From positions 1-32,740 of IMG/VR virus record IMGVR_UViG_3300010885_008217: a stretch of 32,740 nt of DNA. One strand, 5' to 3'. Numbering within the stretch: position 1 is the first letter of the stretch; each line of letters begins with the position of its first letter. The stretch comes from a virus. Positions 2,532 through 32,740 of this stretch are shown one piece after another. The translations under genes were made by a program, and so were the position numbers. Below the pieces are notes generated by a model. It made no database searches and had not been told where the DNA came from. It saw nothing but the letters and a program-made list of their open reading frames with translations.

Positions 2532-4694
2532 ATGAACTATAACGAATTTTTAGAAATCAAAAAAAAGACAATAATCCAAAGTGGATTTGAAGTTAATCAA
2601 GATCAACTTAATTACAATTTATTCCCATTTCAGAAGTTTATTGTTCAGCGTGCATTGAAGGCTGGCAAGTATGCAATATTTGCAGATTGCGGATTAGGAA
2701 AAACTTTAATGCAGTTAACATGGGCAGAGCAAGTTGTAAGAAAAACAAATAAGCCAGTATTAATACTTGCACCTTTGGCAGTTGTCGGACAAACTAAGCA
2801 GGAAGGTTTGAAGTTTGGAATAAATATGAGTAACATATTTGTTTACAATTACGAACAAATAAACAATTTAGACTGCTCAATTTATAGCGGTATTGTACTT
2901 GATGAATCTTCCATCTTAAAAAACTATGAAGGTGAAACAAAGAAGTTGATTATTGATAACTTTAAATTCACTCCTTACAAGTTAGCTTGTACTGCTACAC
3001 CTTCACCAAATGATCCGATGGAACTTGGTAATCATTCTGAGTTCTTAGACATTATGAGCAGAAATGAGATGCTTGCCATGTACTTTGTGCATGATGGCGG
3101 TGAAACTGCTAAATGGAGATTGAAAGGGCATGCAGTTAAGTTGTTTTATCAATTTATTGGAACTTGGGCAATAATGCTTAACAAGCCACAAGACATCGGA
3201 TTTGAAATGACTGGGTATTCTTTGCCTGAATTAAAGCTAATTGAGAAACAAATAATAACTGCCAATAGAGATAATGGGCAATTATTCAATGATGCTATAA
3301 TTTCAGCTACTAACTTCAATCAAGAATTAAGACTTACCAAATTAGAAAGACTTGAAGAAGTTGTAAACATTATTAAAAATAATCCAAGTGAAAACTACAT
3401 TATTTGGATAAAACAAAATGAAGAAGGCGAAGCATTAAAAAAGTTATTACCTGAAGCAGTAGAAGTTAAAGGTTCTGATTCAAACGAATGGAAAGAATCT
3501 AAACTACTTGGATTTGCAAATAATGAATTTAGAATATTAATTACAAAAACAAAGATTGCATCTTTTGGTATGAATTATCAGAATTGCAGAAATCAAATAT
3601 TTGCATCATTAGACTTTTCATTTGAAGGATTATATCAAGCCATAAGAAGATCATATCGTTTTGGACAAAAAGAGATAGTTAATATCTATTTAATTACAAC
3701 TGATACAATGGCAAACGTTAAACAAGCAATAGACAACAAACAAAAACAATTTGAGATTATGCAAGATGAAATGAGCAAAGCAATAAATGCTAACTTAAAC
3801 AATGAAATGATGAAAACAACATCATACAATATTGATGCAATTAACAATGAATTTTACAATATCCAGCGTGGTGATTGTGTAGAATTGATTAAAAATGTAC
3901 CTGATGAATCAGTAGGTTTTTCTATATTCTCTCCGCCATTTGCAGAACTTTATACTTATTCTAATCATATTGAGGATATGGGTAATAGTTCAGACTATAA
4001 TCAATTTTTAACGCAATTCTCATTTTTGATTAAAGAACTATTCAGAGTTGTTCAATCAGGTAGAAATGTTGCAGTACATTGCATGGACCTACCTATTCAG
4101 AAAGGAAAGCATGGTTTTATAGGATTGAGAGATTTCAGCGGATTGATTTTAAAAGCATTTGAAGAATCAGGATTTATATATCATTCAAGAGTTACCATTT
4201 GGAAAGATCCAGTAGTTGAAATGCAAAGGACCAAAGCACTCGGATTACTTCATAAGCAAGTAAAGAAGGATTCTACAATGAGCAGAGTAGGAATACCTGA
4301 TTATTTAATGATATTCAGAAAAGATGGTGAAAGAAGTAATCCAGTAACAAGCACTGATATACCAGTTGATTTATGGCAGAAATACGCATCACCAGTTTGG
4401 ATGGATATTAACTACGGGAATACTTTACAAGGATTTAGAAACGGAAGGGATGCAAACGATGAAAAGCATATTTGTCCTTTACAACTTGAAACAATAGAAA
4501 GAGCAATACATTTGTACACTAATGTAAATGATACAGTATTAACTCCGTTCATGGGTATTGGCTCAGAAGTTTTTCAAGCAGTTAAAATGAATCGCAAGGG
4601 AATAGGATTTGAACTTAAGCAATCTTATTATGACCTTGCTAAAAAGAATCTTCAATCATTAATGGAAACTAAAAAACAAACAACTTTATTCTAA
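2532..4694 (+). CDS. Fused superfamily 2 helicase and DNA methyltransferase
   Basis: Residues about 30-400 form an SNF2-like SF2 helicase. Walker A ADCGLGKT is at 51-58, motif II LDESS at 123-127, motif III TATPSP at 154-159, motif V near TKIASFGMNYQ at 340-350, and motif VI QAIRRSYRFGQ at 369-379. After a charged linker, residues about 440-715 form a beta-class amino-methyltransferase. Motif IV SPPF is at 467-470, a HICPLQ segment at 646-651, and the SAM-binding motif I FMGIGSE at 673-679. SPPF-type enzymes are N4-cytosine or N6-adenine methylases. All key helicase and methylase motifs are present, so both halves look active. No restriction endonuclease gene is adjacent. Likely roles are protecting phage DNA from host restriction with ATP-driven translocation, or replication-linked remodelling. 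The stop overlaps the next start (TAATG). Confidence 0.85.
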   Translation: MNYNEFLEIKKKTIIQSGFEVNQDQLNYNLFPFQKFIVQRALKAGKYAIFADCGLGKTLMQLTWAEQVVRKTNKPVLILAPLAVVGQTKQEGLKFGINMSNIFVYNYEQINNLDCSIYSGIVLDESSILKNYEGETKKLIIDNFKFTPYKLACTATPSPNDPMELGNHSEFLDIMSRNEMLAMYFVHDGGETAKWRLKGHAVKLFYQFIGTWAIMLNKPQDIGFEMTGYSLPELKLIEKQIITANRDNGQLFNDAIISATNFNQELRLTKLERLEEVVNIIKNNPSENYIIWIKQNEEGEALKKLLPEAVEVKGSDSNEWKESKLLGFANNEFRILITKTKIASFGMNYQNCRNQIFASLDFSFEGLYQAIRRSYRFGQKEIVNIYLITTDTMANVKQAIDNKQKQFEIMQDEMSKAINANLNNEMMKTTSYNIDAINNEFYNIQRGDCVELIKNVPDESVGFSIFSPPFAELYTYSNHIEDMGNSSDYNQFLTQFSFLIKELFRVVQSGRNVAVHCMDLPIQKGKHGFIGLRDFSGLILKAFEESGFIYHSRVTIWKDPVVEMQRTKALGLLHKQVKKDSTMSRVGIPDYLMIFRKDGERSNPVTSTDIPVDLWQKYASPVWMDINYGNTLQGFRNGRDANDEKHICPLQLETIERAIHLYTNVNDTVLTPFMGIGSEVFQAVKMNRKGIGFELKQSYYDLAKKNLQSLMETKKQTTLF

Positions 4695-7269: not shown

Positions 7270-7320
7270 AACCTGATTGGGGGATGGTCTGCAATGCCTG
7301 AACCTAATCAGGTTTTTTTT
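7270..7320 (+). terminator. Intrinsic terminator or attenuator before primase gene
   Basis: A perfect 9-bp stem, AACCTGATT (7270-7278) with AATCAGGTT (7306-7314), closes a 27-base loop. An eight-T run (7313-7320) begins within the stem's last bases. The primase ATG follows 12 bases later. Because a promoter-like pair of boxes lies upstream, the hairpin would sit in the primase leader as well as ending the early operon, so it could be an attenuator. Confidence 0.6.
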
Positions 7321-7332
7321 ATCTTTATTTTT

Positions 7333-9582
7333 ATGATTAAAACAATTTACCAAGAGTATCAATCACTTGGTCTAAAGGTTATCCCTATCGAATGGGACAC
7401 AGTTAATAAATGCCCAGTATCGCATCGAGAGTGGCAATCTGATAACTTACCGATTTATGATTATCACAATGCTTTAATGGTGGCAACTGGTAACGATTGG
7501 GCAGCCTTAGACTTTGACATAAAGAATACTGATGATAAGGAAATATTTAATAAGTGGCTTGCTATTATCAAGAATCAAAAACCTGATATCTTAGACAAAG
7601 TATTTATTGAGCAAACAAGAAATAAAGGTTATCATGTATGGATTAAGTATAAATACTTAACAAAGAAATTATCATTAGCTGATTCCTTGCAAGGTGCTGA
7701 GGTAATAGCTTTATACGCAGAAGGTCCTTTGGTTTATACTTATCCAACTGCGCAATATGTTGAGTATCACAATTCTATGCAAGATGTCGAATACTTATCT
7801 ATATGTGAATATAATTACCTACTTGAAACATCACAATTTTTTAATGAGTACAAGCCTTCTTACGATCCAAATAAAAAAGCAGTTAGTTACCCAGTAGGAT
7901 TTGAAAAGAAACTGATTTCTTTTGATACCTTGATTAATGATGATACTTGGAATGAGATACTAAATCAAATAGGACTAGAAGTTATTCACGATTTCAGGTA
8001 TAATAAAAAAGATTTCTTTACTGCCTATCGAAGATCTAATTCATCATCTCAGCAAATATCTGCTAAGGTATATTTTAAAACAAAAAGGTTGATGTTATTC
8101 ACGGCATCACTACCACAATATCCAAACTGGCACAATAAACATAACTACGATGTATGGGCATTGCCTCCATCGTTTGTGCTATTTTACAAGAACGATAGGG
8201 ATTGGGAAACAACCATACAAGAAATTGATATGATAATTGATTCATCAGGCATTGACATTGAAGAAGAAACGAAACTTATATCAAATCAGGAATTTCCTTA
8301 TGATATATTCCCTGAAGCCATAAGATCATCATTGTTTCAAGTTGCAGAAGGTCGTAGCCTTGCGCCTCACTTCTTAGCTACATGCGGAATTTGGACCATA
8401 TCAAGCCTAGCTGGAACGATGTATAAGTCAGACTTCAATGGTGATGCACGAAACATATTATTTTGTTTAATGATTGCGCCTATCTCAGTAGGAAAAACAC
8501 CAGCTTACAAGTCTATGTGTGAAAAACCATTGTCAGATGTTATGAAACAATATGATATACAATATAGGGCTGATGTCAAGAAATGGGAACTTGAACTTCT
8601 TGAAGCAAAAAAGAAGAAAGAAGAATTTATAAAAAAGAAGCCAAGAAGATATATACCATTTGCAGTCGATGGTACTACGGAAGGCTACATCGCACTATCT
8701 ATGGACCAGCCTAACGGCTTAGGAGTTTACCATGATGAAGCAGAAACAATCCTAAATGCTGGTAGTTTCAAATCAAATAATGATTCAATTAGTTTCTTTA
8801 CCCAAGCATTCTCAGGTGGAAGGCTCACGCAAATTAGAGCGGATCGCGACAAAGAAAGAATTGTACCTAATTTAAACATTAACTTATTAATGGGAACACA
8901 GCCAAGCAGGCTCCTGAATGTATTTACTAAGGATGCACTTGCAAGCGGATTTACTTCTAGGTTCTTGATGGTAGAATCTGATTATATGAAACTAAATACC
9001 GAAGTTGATCCTTTTGCTAAAAATAAAGAAATGGATCAAGAATGGACAAAAATTGTCCAATACTTGTATAAATTAGGTTATTCTTTCAACACTGGTCAAG
9101 CGCAACAAGTTAATATTACAATGGATGAAGCAGCAAAAAACCTTTATCGTTATTATTATAAATTGAATCTCGAACAAGCCAACGAGAGAATACTTAATAA
9201 ATGCGAAAACTTACTTATCGGTACTGAAGCCAAAATGAGTGCTTATTTTCCGCGTTTATGCCAGTTGATAGCAATCCTTAACAATCCAATTAAACCCGAA
9301 ATTACCGAGCAGTACGTTCATTTAGCATGGCAACTGTACAAGTACTACGCAAATTCAACAATTCGAATAATAATGAAGATGCAAGGTGAAAGCGAAACGG
9401 GTTTAAAATCAGAAACGGAACTTCTTTACAACGCATTGCCATTAACTTTCTCAGTCAAGGAAGCTGAAGAAATCTGCATCAGGTTAAATTTAAAGAAGGA
9501 TAAGTTTAAAAATTCGTTAAGATTTAAAGATTTTAAGAGTTTATTCATCCGTGAAAAGCAAGGTTATTATGCAAAAGTATAA
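7333..9582 (+). CDS. Primase-polymerase / DUF3987 helicase fusion
   Basis: The protein has 749 residues counted from the ATG at 7333; an earlier in-frame ATG at 7294 lies inside the terminator hairpin and is unlikely. The N-terminal part (about 1-170) is an archaeo-eukaryotic-type prim-pol: ATGNDWAALDFDIK has catalytic D60 and D62, and GYHVW has H101. The C-terminal part (about 325-640) resembles DUF3987 phage helicase/ATPases, with Walker A-like APISVGKT at 382-389 and Walker B-like VYHDEAE at 465-471. It would prime and unwind DNA at the phage fork. A lysine-rich helix at about 415-440 links the ATPase motifs. The gene is followed directly by the repeat-rich candidate origin, as often found for replication initiators. 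Confidence 0.8.
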   Translation: MIKTIYQEYQSLGLKVIPIEWDTVNKCPVSHREWQSDNLPIYDYHNALMVATGNDWAALDFDIKNTDDKEIFNKWLAIIKNQKPDILDKVFIEQTRNKGYHVWIKYKYLTKKLSLADSLQGAEVIALYAEGPLVYTYPTAQYVEYHNSMQDVEYLSICEYNYLLETSQFFNEYKPSYDPNKKAVSYPVGFEKKLISFDTLINDDTWNEILNQIGLEVIHDFRYNKKDFFTAYRRSNSSSQQISAKVYFKTKRLMLFTASLPQYPNWHNKHNYDVWALPPSFVLFYKNDRDWETTIQEIDMIIDSSGIDIEEETKLISNQEFPYDIFPEAIRSSLFQVAEGRSLAPHFLATCGIWTISSLAGTMYKSDFNGDARNILFCLMIAPISVGKTPAYKSMCEKPLSDVMKQYDIQYRADVKKWELELLEAKKKKEEFIKKKPRRYIPFAVDGTTEGYIALSMDQPNGLGVYHDEAETILNAGSFKSNNDSISFFTQAFSGGRLTQIRADRDKERIVPNLNINLLMGTQPSRLLNVFTKDALASGFTSRFLMVESDYMKLNTEVDPFAKNKEMDQEWTKIVQYLYKLGYSFNTGQAQQVNITMDEAAKNLYRYYYKLNLEQANERILNKCENLLIGTEAKMSAYFPRLCQLIAILNNPIKPEITEQYVHLAWQLYKYYANSTIRIIMKMQGESETGLKSETELLYNALPLTFSVKEAEEICIRLNLKKDKFKNSLRFKDFKSLFIREKQGYYAKV

Positions 9583-9584
9583 TA

Positions 9585-9808
9585 GAAAAGTTCGCGAAAG
9601 TTCGCGAAAGTTCGTTTTTTTTCCTCTGAAAGGTGCGTCAATGCTGCAAAGGTTCGAAAGTGCGCACTTTACTAAGAGATATAATTTAAATATATATATA
9701 TATATAAATATATATACAGTAGAGAAAAACGAACTTTCGAACTTTTCCGCACTGGCATTGAGTTTCAGCTGATTTTACGCGAACTTTTCGAGAACTTTCG
9801 AACTTTTC
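9585..9808. repeat. Opposed 10-bp repeats flanking an AT tract; candidate origin or operator field
   Basis: On the plus strand three units of GAAA(A)GTTCGC lie end to end at 9585-9614. On the right the same unit is inverted: two copies at 9730-9747 (CGAACTTTCGAACTTTTC) and three at 9779-9808. Between them are GGTTCGAAAG (9651-9660), an overlapping perfect 14-base palindrome AAAGTGCGCACTTT (9657-9670) and an AT-only run of about 30 bases (9687-9716). The segment is non-coding: it begins after the primase stop and ends before the sigma-like gene. Iterons beside an AT-rich unwinding region next to a primase are typical of replication origins. An operator array controlling the sigma-like gene is the main alternative. 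Confidence 0.65.
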
Positions 9809-9828: not shown

Positions 9829-9836
9829 TACCTTTG
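9829..9836 (+). promoter_or_regulatory. TANNTTTG promoter box directly before sigma-like gene
   Basis: TACCTTTG (9829-9836) ends four bases before the ATG at 9841. A TTTT run at 9804-9807 could be a weak upstream box with a 21-base spacer. If the box works at the usual distance, the transcript would start at or next to the start codon, giving a leaderless or nearly leaderless mRNA. The repeat field overlaps the upstream box region, so a repeat-binding protein could control this promoter. Confidence 0.45.
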
Positions 9837-9840
9837 TTTT

Positions 9841-10302
9841 ATGACTGCAAGGCAAATAATCGAGCAACTTTACCGAAGTGAAGAACTTCGGGAATGCTTG
9901 TCTAAAATAAAGCCTCAGGATTTGCAAGATGATTTACTTCAACATTGCTTTTTAGAATTATTGAACAAGGATGAAACAATAATTGTTAATTTGCATTTAG
10001 AGGGCAGATTTATCGCATACGTGGCAAAGATGATGTACAACATGGTAAATTGGAAGAACAGTGAATTTAACCGTATTAAAATGCGTGAGGTGTTAACTAA
10101 TGACTTTAACCATCCTAGCGAAACAATAGAAGAAGAAAATTTGTTACCTTTGGGTAAGTTGCATTGGGTAAGTGAGAAGGTATTAACATTGTATGCTGAG
10201 CATGGTAGTTATCGAGCAGTTGGGGAAGTAACTGGAATACCTTACCCAACAGTATTTAGAATGGTTAAACAAGCTAAGATTAAAATAAAAAAAATGATAT
10301 GA
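9841..10302 (+). CDS. Sigma-70-like regulator, divergent
   Basis: The protein has 153 residues. Residues about 27-80 (DLQDDLLQHCFLELL to FIAYVAKMMYNMVNWKNS) resemble sigma region 2, where a 'DL.Q..fl.l' helix is followed by a 'f..yv..m..N' helix. Residues about 112-150 (VLTLYAEHGSYRAVGEVTGI, then PYPTVFRMVKQAKIKIKK) resemble the region 4 helix-turn-helix that contacts the -35 element. It is smaller than ECF sigma factors (about 170-200 residues), and the region 2 match is weak. It sits at the early/late boundary, directly upstream of the terminase genes, where a late-gene activator is expected. It may alternatively be a region 4-type DNA-binding activator without core-polymerase binding. Confidence 0.6.
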   Translation: MTARQIIEQLYRSEELRECLSKIKPQDLQDDLLQHCFLELLNKDETIIVNLHLEGRFIAYVAKMMYNMVNWKNSEFNRIKMREVLTNDFNHPSETIEEENLLPLGKLHWVSEKVLTLYAEHGSYRAVGEVTGIPYPTVFRMVKQAKIKIKKMI

Positions 10303-13580: not shown

Positions 13581-14719
13581 CATTCGAATCAACACCACCA
13601 GTATATTCATCCGTAAACGATGCTCTAGTTTATGTGGCTTACGATGCTCACGCTGCTGATCCTGCAACTTATCCAAATTATAAATATGTTGCAGAAGTTT
13701 GGATAAACGGAGTGCAGAAGTTCACGGGTAAATACTTTCCTAATCCTACAACGAATCGTGGGATTATGGATTTCTCATCAGTTGTTCGGGAATACGTTGT
13801 TACTACTTTGCAGCCAACTGGCTCAGGTATCTTAGCGCAAGAACTAGGCGAGGGAAGTTGGTCCTTATCCGTAGTAATTAAGATTCGTGAGGAGTATTCA
13901 GGAACTGTTGGCGCGGTGGTGCTTACTGATTCTACACGGACTTTCTTCAATCACTATAATGGAAGAATCAATAATTTTACTTTGTTGGGTAGTTACCCAG
14001 CGAAGCCAACAACTGATAGACCTACTGAAATCAATCTGACTTTTGCCAGTGCGCAATATTACTTACCATACTTCAGTGAAACTACTGCATCGTTTAACGT
14101 TGTCATTACTGGCGGTACTTCAACGAGAACTAAAACGATTACACCGACTGCAGCCAATACTTTGCAGATTCTTAATATTTCGCCATTAGCCATCAATGTT
14201 GATTACGCTGGTAACTTTACATCATCAACCGAGAGATACACAGTTGCAGTTGGTGGTGTTACTTACACAGTAAATGTACTTTGTCAAGGTATGTATCGCA
14301 ATTACTATGCACACTTCCTGAATAAGTTTGGCGGCTATGAAACGATGATGTTTAACAAGGTATCAAAACGAACTTTCGAAATTGATAAGAAATCGTTTAA
14401 TCAGTTATCATATCGCGTTAGTGGATCGGGTGTTGTATCGGTTAAGTCAGGAAACACGATGTACCAACAAAAGACTGATTTCGCTGGTAGGTTTAAAGAA
14501 CGTTTACGTATGAATACTGATTGGCTAAGTGATAACGAATATCAATGGCTCGCACAATTAGTTACTTCGCCACAAGTATGGATTGAAGATGCAGGAACTT
14601 TATACCCAGTATCAATATCAGGTACAAACTATGAATTTAAAGAACACATTGTTGATGGGTTGATTAACTTGATGATTGATGTCGAATTTGGCGCAACCTA
14701 TAAAACTCAATTTCAATGA
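13577..14719 (+). CDS. Tail structural protein
   Basis: The protein has 380 residues, beta-rich and T/S/Y/V-rich, as expected for a virion component. The N-terminal part (VNDALVYVAYDAH, then YKYVAEVWINGVQ) resembles tail proteins seen upstream of large tail genes in Bacteroidota phages. It is linked by ATGA overlaps on both sides. At 14369-14382 the coding sequence carries one copy of the CGAACTTTCG repeat motif found in the candidate origin, probably by chance. It could be a distal tail or baseplate protein. Confidence 0.6.
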   Translation: MTFESTPPVYSSVNDALVYVAYDAHAADPATYPNYKYVAEVWINGVQKFTGKYFPNPTTNRGIMDFSSVVREYVVTTLQPTGSGILAQELGEGSWSLSVVIKIREEYSGTVGAVVLTDSTRTFFNHYNGRINNFTLLGSYPAKPTTDRPTEINLTFASAQYYLPYFSETTASFNVVITGGTSTRTKTITPTAANTLQILNISPLAINVDYAGNFTSSTERYTVAVGGVTYTVNVLCQGMYRNYYAHFLNKFGGYETMMFNKVSKRTFEIDKKSFNQLSYRVSGSGVVSVKSGNTMYQQKTDFAGRFKERLRMNTDWLSDNEYQWLAQLVTSPQVWIEDAGTLYPVSISGTNYEFKEHIVDGLINLMIDVEFGATYKTQFQ

Positions 14720-30340: not shown

Positions 30341-30368
30341 AAAAAGCCAGTAGTTATTTACTACTGGC
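30339..30368 (-). terminator. Terminator between converging operons
   Basis: GCCAGTAG (30346-30353) pairs perfectly with CTACTGGC (30361-30368) around a 7-base loop. Seven As at 30339-30345 become a U-run when read leftward. It terminates the minus-strand operon and also contains the HTH gene's stop codon in its loop. There is no T-run on the plus side, but the stem could still slow rightward transcription. Confidence 0.75.
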
Positions 30369-30563
30369 GAATAGGAACAAATAAAGATCATCAATCCCAA
30401 ATGTATCTGCAATCTTTTTAATAGTTTCTAACGATGGCTCGGCTCTACCTGACTCATAGGATTGTACCATACCTTTCGTTATGCCTAGCATCTGAGCAAA
30501 ACACTGCTGCGTTAAGTTTTTTTGGTGCCTTACCATTATAAGGTTTACCCGTAATTTGTTCAA
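30354..30563 (-). CDS. Cro/CI-type helix-turn-helix regulator
   Basis: The protein has 69 residues. The sequence NLTQQCFAQMLGITKGMVQS, then YESGRAEPSLETIKKIADTF, is a classic HTH_3 domain with the Q-x-x-x-A-x-x-x-G-I-(T/S)-x-x-x-(V/I) core. No dimerisation or cleavage domain follows, so it is Cro-like. The phage shows no integrase, so a lysogeny repressor is not required; it may time early transcription. It overlaps the preceding gene by 110 bases in another frame. The transcript ends in the terminator that overlaps this gene's last codons. Confidence 0.8.
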   Translation of the reverse strand: MNKLRVNLIMVRHQKNLTQQCFAQMLGITKGMVQSYESGRAEPSLETIKKIADTFGIDDLYLFLFASSK

Positions 30564-31414: not shown

Positions 31415-31759
31415 TTAAATGTATATTTCATTGAGAACTATTTTAATTGGATTTTCGTGTTTTAAAGATAATTGATTCTTTATAACTTGAATCCCGTGCA
31501 TAACTGTTGTATGATCCGTAATTGCTGGACTTAGGTATTCAGCAATTTCATCTAGGCTCATTTCAGTATGTTTACGTAACATGTAGCATAAAATATACCT
31601 AGCTTGAACCTTTGTCTTATTGCGATTCTTAATGCGCAGTTCTTCGATGTTAGTAGCATAGTAAGAACATACTTCATCACTAATTGATGTTATTGAAACA
31701 ATTCGTTTTAGATCCTTAATCTTAGTTCTAAGACCAGGCACTACGTAAGGGCTAATCAT
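31415..31759 (-). CDS. DnaA domain IV-like protein
   Basis: Counted from ATG 31759 the protein has 114 residues; a TTG 27 bases upstream is open but less likely. Residues about 49-100 (KVQARYILCYMLRKHTEMSL to EIAEYLSPAITDHTTVMHGI) match the DNA-binding domain IV of DnaA, including the signature DHTTVMHG at 82-89 that contacts the DnaA box. The AAA+ part of DnaA is absent. It could titrate DnaA boxes, recruit host replication proteins or act as a transcription regulator. Its ATG overlaps the stop of a membrane micro-gene. Confidence 0.75.
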   Translation of the reverse strand: MISPYVVPGLRTKIKDLKRIVSITSISDEVCSYYATNIEELRIKNRNKTKVQARYILCYMLRKHTEMSLDEIAEYLSPAITDHTTVMHGIQVIKNQLSLKHENPIKIVLNEIYI

Positions 31760-31850
31760 TACTAAAAAAGGTTTTTCTGATGGCAAAGCCTATGCAGTAA
31801 ACTGCAATCGTTAAAACTGAGATAATGATAAATTCAAAAATTGAGATCAT
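31752..31850 (-). CDS. 32-residue membrane micro-protein before the DnaA-like gene
   Basis: From ATG 31850 the product is MISIFEFIIISVLTIAVYCI followed by a short basic tail (GFAIRKTFFSND). One membrane span is predicted. Its stop lies 8 bases past the DnaA-like gene's ATG, a translational-coupling arrangement like others in this operon. Function unknown; the overlap and composition are the support. Confidence 0.5.
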   Translation of the reverse strand: MISIFEFIIISVLTIAVYCIGFAIRKTFFSND

Positions 31851-32399: not shown

Positions 32400-32740
32400 A
32401 TGGACATCACAACAACAGAAATCATGACTATTGCAAAGTCATTTGCAGATTCAGGAATGTTCCCTGATTGCAAATCAATGGCACAAGCAGCAGTTAAAAT
32501 TCAAGCAGGTAGAGAGTTCGGCATTCAACCATTTGCTGCAATGTCAGGCATTCACATTATCCAAGGTAAGCCTACAATCGGGGCAGGACTTATGGCAGCA
32601 AGGGTAAAAGGATTTGGCAAATACGATTATAAGGTAATTGAGCATAATGACAAAGTTTGTTCAATAGAATACTTACAAGGTAAGGAATCAATCGGGGTAA
32701 GCACGTTTACCATCGAGGATGCTCGCAAAGCTGGGACGAA
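32400..32740 (+). CDS. RecT-like recombinase, N-terminal part (cut by window edge)
   Basis: The frame gives 113 residues plus two bases to the window end. It starts MDITTTEIMTIAKSFADSGM. The segment AAVKIQAGREFGIQPFAAMS, then IHIIQGKPTIGAGLMAARVK, is typical of phage RecT-like annealases (the 'G.d+f.am..I.vI.GKp.l.a' block). It ends in EDARKAGT (106-113), the same peptide with which the window begins. The DNA differs at four codon third positions over that stretch, all silent. So this is the same gene or an allele of it. Confidence 0.7.
   Translation, partial: MDITTTEIMTIAKSFADSGMFPDCKSMAQAAVKIQAGREFGIQPFAAMSGIHIIQGKPTIGAGLMAARVKGFGKYDYKVIEHNDKVCSIEYLQGKESIGVSTFTIEDARKAGT

Follow-up and report, generated by a model that had tools for sequence, protein, structure and literature searches.

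In the 32,740-nucleotide virus record IMGVR_UViG_3300010885_008217 (positions 1 to 32,740, hereafter the window), a mirrored array of short repeats at 9585-9808, just downstream of a primase-helicase gene, is most probably a phage replication origin (a probability of roughly 0.87), which would be bound by the upstream-encoded primase-helicase and whose mirror layout would serve bidirectional firing. The analysis directly establishes a family-wide architecture, the covariation of protein and DNA, the joint exchange of the helix-turn-helix (HTH) and the array, and the predicted folds of the protein. The mechanism proposed is that the C-terminal winged helix of the primase-helicase binds each iteron, as the covariation suggests, that the mirror arrangement would allow two MCM-like hexamers to assemble face to face, that the opposed hexamers would melt the central AT tract, and that forks would then be primed in both directions from the array. 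The evidence base is comparative, and the contigs are metagenomic, some of them near duplicates.

The array segment is bounded by the primase-helicase stop codon (9580-9582) and the ATG of the downstream gene at 9841, in agreement with the initial annotation, which had located it between the primase-helicase and a sigma-like gene. The left outer iterons are three direct copies of GAA(A)AGTTCG on the plus strand with a 10-bp period (9585-9594, 9596-9604, and 9606-9614), followed by the left spacer element CTGAAAGGTGCGTCAATG (9626-9643, plus strand), which is mirrored in part by the right spacer, and by a left inner group of degenerate copies (9648-9670), namely AAAGGTTCG in direct orientation at 9648-9656 and GAAAGTGCG at 9656-9664, at a position where the relatives L001 and L003 carry a clear reversed copy. 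The second of these degenerate copies lies within the palindrome AAAGTGCGCACTTT (9657-9670), which had been noticed earlier and can now be described more precisely as a degenerate iteron opposite its own inverted copy. The proposed unwinding element is a tract of A/T only (9679-9716), as previously recognized, although its length is 38 bp, slightly over the 30 or so first given; an AT tract also forms the centre of the relatives' arrays. On the minus strand, repeat mapping places two right inner iterons at 9730-9738 and 9738-9747 and three right outer iterons at 9780-9789, 9791-9799, and 9799-9808, with the right spacer element, the mirror counterpart of the left one, in the CATTGAGTTTCAG region between them (9756-9768, minus strand). 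The original count of three left copies and five inverted right copies is borne out, with a single mismatch in the right copy at 9791-9799, and the full order would be outer triplet, spacer of about 40 bp, inner pair, AT tract, inner pair, spacer, and outer triplet. The exact 8-mer AAAGTTCG is present in seven copies within about 220 bp, and its single other copy, the lone one already reported, lies at 14369-14376 within a coding gene; with up to one mismatch allowed, GAAAGTTCG has 16 occurrences in the window, where shuffles give 5.8 (standard deviation 2.7). Aligned by BLAST to its own reverse complement, the segment 9584-9809 gives 70% identity over 226 bp (E 7e-18).

The origin assignment gains support from relatives, in which the mirrored array accompanies the primase-helicase family-wide and across differing downstream genes. 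Two scans of viral contigs returned about 80 relatives of the primase-helicase, and the comparison rests on IMG/VR contigs, the phages collection having just one weak relative to offer; genome contigs supplied one fragment, from a Sphingobacteriales metagenome-assembled genome. An array, defined by an 8-mer that recurs four or more times in the 1.2 kb 3' of the gene, is found in 56 of the 63 distinct relatives with enough downstream sequence, versus 7 of 1604 background windows from the same loci. Where genes are inserted after the primase, such as a 240-aa gene in L006, the array sits past the inserted gene, and the downstream gene varies among lineages, a homologue of the window's sigma-like protein being found in just 10 of 20 relatives; the array therefore travels with the primase-helicase. 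The 240-aa gene lies between primase and array in L005, L006, and L008 and resembles, by eye, a protein of the PAPS-reductase type. Symmetry and spacing, whose loss in relatives had been named as grounds for abandoning the origin, are both kept: copies left of the AT tract are oriented 115 plus to 32 minus and those right of it 7 plus to 130 minus, and the left-side minority consists mostly of one reversed copy at a fixed position. The clearest full pattern, in L025, reads triplet, reversed copy, 42 bp, pair, AT tract, pair, 42 bp, reversed copy, triplet; the half-array of triplet, reversed copy, 42-43 bp or so, and pair is found in L025, L037, and L053, and the reversed copy of the window is degenerate. 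The repeat word itself differs by lineage (AAAGTTC, ATTCTCA, ATTCGCA, ATTTGCA, GGTGTAAA, and others).

The binder of the array appears to be the C-terminal winged helix of the primase-helicase, since the repeat letters and the recognition-helix residues change together across about 70 related phages. Specifically, in contrasts in which the iteron changes, 56 of 620 fixed amino-acid differences fall in the HTH (residues 722-743) where 18 are expected, versus 25 of 759, with 22 expected, in contrasts with an unchanged iteron. Between phages with ATTCTCA and those with ATTCGCA, 3 of 749 residues show fixed differences (F731L, N740D, and I742M), each of them within the HTH. Of the 749 columns, residue 740 alone gives full prediction of the base immediately ahead of the repeat's CA (30 of 30 rows), Asn accompanying T and Asp accompanying G; the base one further ahead of CA is predicted by four columns, residue 739 among them. 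On chemical grounds, the T and G preferences would be consistent with Asn pairing with adenine, and Asp with cytosine, on the opposite strand. In the window, the proposed specificity residues of the recognition helix, which covary with the repeat bases, are K739 and N740 (codons at 9508-9513, plus strand), and the same KN residues are present with AAAGTTC in two distant clades. When the tree is built from the protein body alone, eight changes of the base before CA fall on it, and all four well-supported independent pairs agree; because a single clade of ATTCGCA rows is not rejected by the approximately unbiased (AU) test (p 0.087), the ATTCGCA switches are not taken to be proven separate events. 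Ten contigs were fetched after the rule had been noticed: all nine of clade B obey it at residue 740, and the tenth, of the DV type, carries TTTGCAC/TTTACAC, words of its own type. Lastly, L043 is like L041 in the protein body and like L080 both in its array and in the final 150 nt of the gene, a mosaic which argues that HTH and array were swapped as one cassette.

The primase-helicase gene (7294-9582, plus strand) encodes 762 aa from the ATG at 7294, and relatives point to a start at 7333. The protein is predicted to combine a pRN1-type prim-pol, an MCM-like DUF3987 helicase (Pfam E 7e-34), and a winged helix and is the proposed initiator. An AlphaFold2 model built from 36 family members (mean predicted local distance difference test, pLDDT, of 81) folds the C-terminus as a winged helix, residues 705-762 (codons at 9406-9579, plus strand) being predicted as helix-strand-helix-helix-strand-strand. 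In Foldseek comparisons, the N-terminus has its best hits to the pRN1 ORF904 prim-pol (E 2e-5) and the middle matches MCM2-7 helicases (E 1e-4), while searching the PDB by sequence, whether with the protein or the 36-member profile, gave no meaningful match. DUF3987 is the only Pfam match in all 36 members scanned.

Several observations weigh against a replication origin fired by this protein. Seven of the 63 loci carry at most three exact copies of the repeat, and the outermost-base change of the window (G for A) is without a counterpart at residues 735-740. Few pairs are independent (sign test p 0.125), and many of the contigs fetched later nearly duplicate ones already known. The MCM likeness is structural only, with modest TM-scores. 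GC skew at four-fold sites favours the origin weakly, rising from left to right of the array in 22 of 32 loci, but this signal is confounded by gene class; the cumulative GC skew of the window, proposed as a check, does not turn at the array. A bolder proposal, possible but somewhat doubtful, is that a pair of MCM-like DUF3987 hexamers is placed head to head on the duplex by the two mirrored half-arrays, as a phage counterpart of the MCM double hexamer, and that HTH and origin evolve together as a lock-and-key cassette open to exchange, which would keep co-infecting relatives from firing each other's origins.

Transcriptional control offers another explanation of the repeats. The element TACCTTTG (9829-9836, plus strand), directly ahead of the downstream gene, matches the Bacteroidota promoter -7 element TAnnTTTG, which adjoins the right arm, within 80 nt, in 24 of 31 arrays where about 0.05 are expected per 80 nt; a transcription side effect is therefore plausible, and an effect of the array on the right-hand promoter is possible, at most as a secondary one. 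The right-hand gene itself (9841-10302) is weakly sigma region-4-like. An operator field, in which a regulator, possibly the initiator itself, would occupy the repeats mainly to control this promoter and the sigma-like gene, was first judged equally consistent with the array, but as the sole function it is now improbable: the downstream gene differs by lineage whereas array and primase stay together, such control has no need for mirrored sites around an AT tract far to the left of the promoter, and the covarying protein is a replication enzyme. A stem-loop origin, in which the inverted arms extrude as a hairpin and structure rather than letters is recognized, is slightly less probable still. 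The window strand does fold far better than its shuffles (z -7.7), and pRN1, which shares the domain order, has its stem-loop origin 3' of the gene (PMC4234260); a hairpin is expected from inverted iterons anyway, however, the fold of L018 is weaker and interrupted (z -3.5), and recognition of structure does not predict letters that covary with recognition-helix residues. The least probable binder is another protein of the phage, be it the DnaA domain IV protein (31415-31786, minus strand; a strong DnaA_C match, E 1e-16), the HTH repressor (30354-30563, minus strand), or a packaging protein acting on a pac site (the nearby genes include one of small-terminase type, 0.8 kb rightward of the array), given that DnaA_C is not found in 6 of 20 array-bearing relatives and that two tested neighbour genes have no column predicting an iteron base whereas primase residue 740 predicts it. 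A DnaA-like binder had also been suggested at the outset, and the DnaA-box reading is rejected, as boxes in the window are fewer than expected by chance and none lies in the array.

The DnaA domain IV protein stands alone, without an AAA+ part (Bac_DnaA_C E 1e-16), occurs in 14 of 20 relatives, and might act on the host oriC. In one clade of relatives, the arrays contain, in one or both spacers, perfect matches in opposed orientation to the E. coli integration host factor (IHF) consensus WATCAANNNNTTR (L006, L027, L033, L035, L037, L041, L043, L044, L053, L066, L075, L076, L080, and L081), and a host bending protein may belong to the origin complex there. The arrays hold 29 such perfect sites, at 3.9 per kb versus 0.21 per kb elsewhere, and the IHF-consensus site of that clade occupies the place of the window's right spacer element; in the window's own spacers, no IHF site was found within one mismatch. 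Elsewhere in the window, 2532-4694 (plus strand) encodes an SNF2-type helicase and an N6/N4 DNA methyltransferase in one protein. The two ends (1-26 and 32715-32740) both encode the peptide EDARKAGT of a RecT-like gene with about 4 base differences in 26, which suggests that the genome is circular, was opened within this gene, and was pieced together from strain variants.

For the candidate origin, natural variation supplies more than 10 repeat words together with recognition helices to match, single-residue switches among them, which makes the DNA-recognition code of a self-loading helicase testable by a few point changes. The mirror layout is a compact model for double-hexamer loading, and the cassette of HTH plus array would give Bacteroidota, for which tools are scarce, a portable replicon.

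As for known systems, the P1 and lambda origins, initially offered as models, are not the best match: in such iteron origins a separate initiator binds direct iterons and the host helicase is loaded, whereas here the arrays are opposed and the initiator candidate is the helicase. The array system functions in the manner of the self-loading Rep/ori modules known from P4, Staphylococcus aureus pathogenicity islands (SaPIs), and phage-inducible chromosomal islands (PICIs), which are closer, with a DUF3987 initiator and a mirror-doubled array. In the portions of the SaPI/PICI literature drawn on here, the C-terminal domain of SaPI Rep acts on iterons directly downstream of the rep gene (PMC7581432), two iteron sets flank an AT-rich region in pri-rep-ori, and rep plus ori sustain a plasmid (PMC7581432, PMC6092414). 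The window likewise has its iteron array directly downstream of an initiator-helicase gene, with one iteron set on each side of an AT tract, and recognition by the helicase C-terminal domain is suggested by covariation. The helicase is DUF927 or D5_N/Primase_Cterm in SaPIs and PICIs and DUF3987 here, and since DUF3987 alone was matched in the scanned members, the system resembles this type in its working rather than belonging to it. Here, DUF3987 is also fused to a prim-pol, in uncultivated Bacteroidota-type phages rather than in a satellite, and strict mirror order and residue-base covariation are not among the features described in those portions of the two sources (PMC7581432, PMC6092414).

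The alpha protein of satellite phage P4 is a primase-helicase whose C-terminal winged helix binds iterons (PMC4234260), and in P4 (X51522) crr lies just 3' of the alpha gene. The ori1 of P4 is annotated as a triplet, a reversed copy, a gap of 43 bp, and a pair, which comes near the layout of L025 and L037, where the gap is 42 bp. It differs in being a single, unmirrored half-array with the repeat GGTGAACAG, in the iteron direction relative to the nearest AT-rich stretch, in the distance of about 4.7 kb between crr and ori1, and in its TOPRIM (DnaG-type) primase, where the fold of the N-terminus here is that of the pRN1 prim-pol. A DnaA box, TTATCCACA, lies just left of crr in P4 (L086, 4280-4289), and none is near the window's array. 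pRN1 ORF904 shares the prim-pol fold, a helicase, the C-terminal winged helix, and an origin 3' of the gene (PMC4234260), but its helicase belongs to superfamily 3 (SF3) and its stem-loop origin is without iterons, whereas the window has covarying iterons plus hairpin potential. In geminiviruses, too, the positions of Rep iterons are kept while their letters diverge with the cognate Rep (PMC12548392), although this is an unrelated rolling-circle initiator of single-stranded DNA plant viruses. A published prediction concerns PrimQH-type proteins, and the combination of prim-pol, DUF3987, and C-terminal winged helix in a single protein is also predicted here; in the part of their study that bears on these proteins, Kazlauskas and colleagues predicted the winged helix of PrimQH proteins, some of them with DUF3987, as a possible origin recogniser and DUF3987 helicases as replication helicases of mobile genetic elements, with no origin for them described there (PMC5862659). 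With its DUF3987 initiator and mirror-doubled array, the present case is a putative variant of this predicted kind, for which natural variation provides evidence in favour of the prediction.
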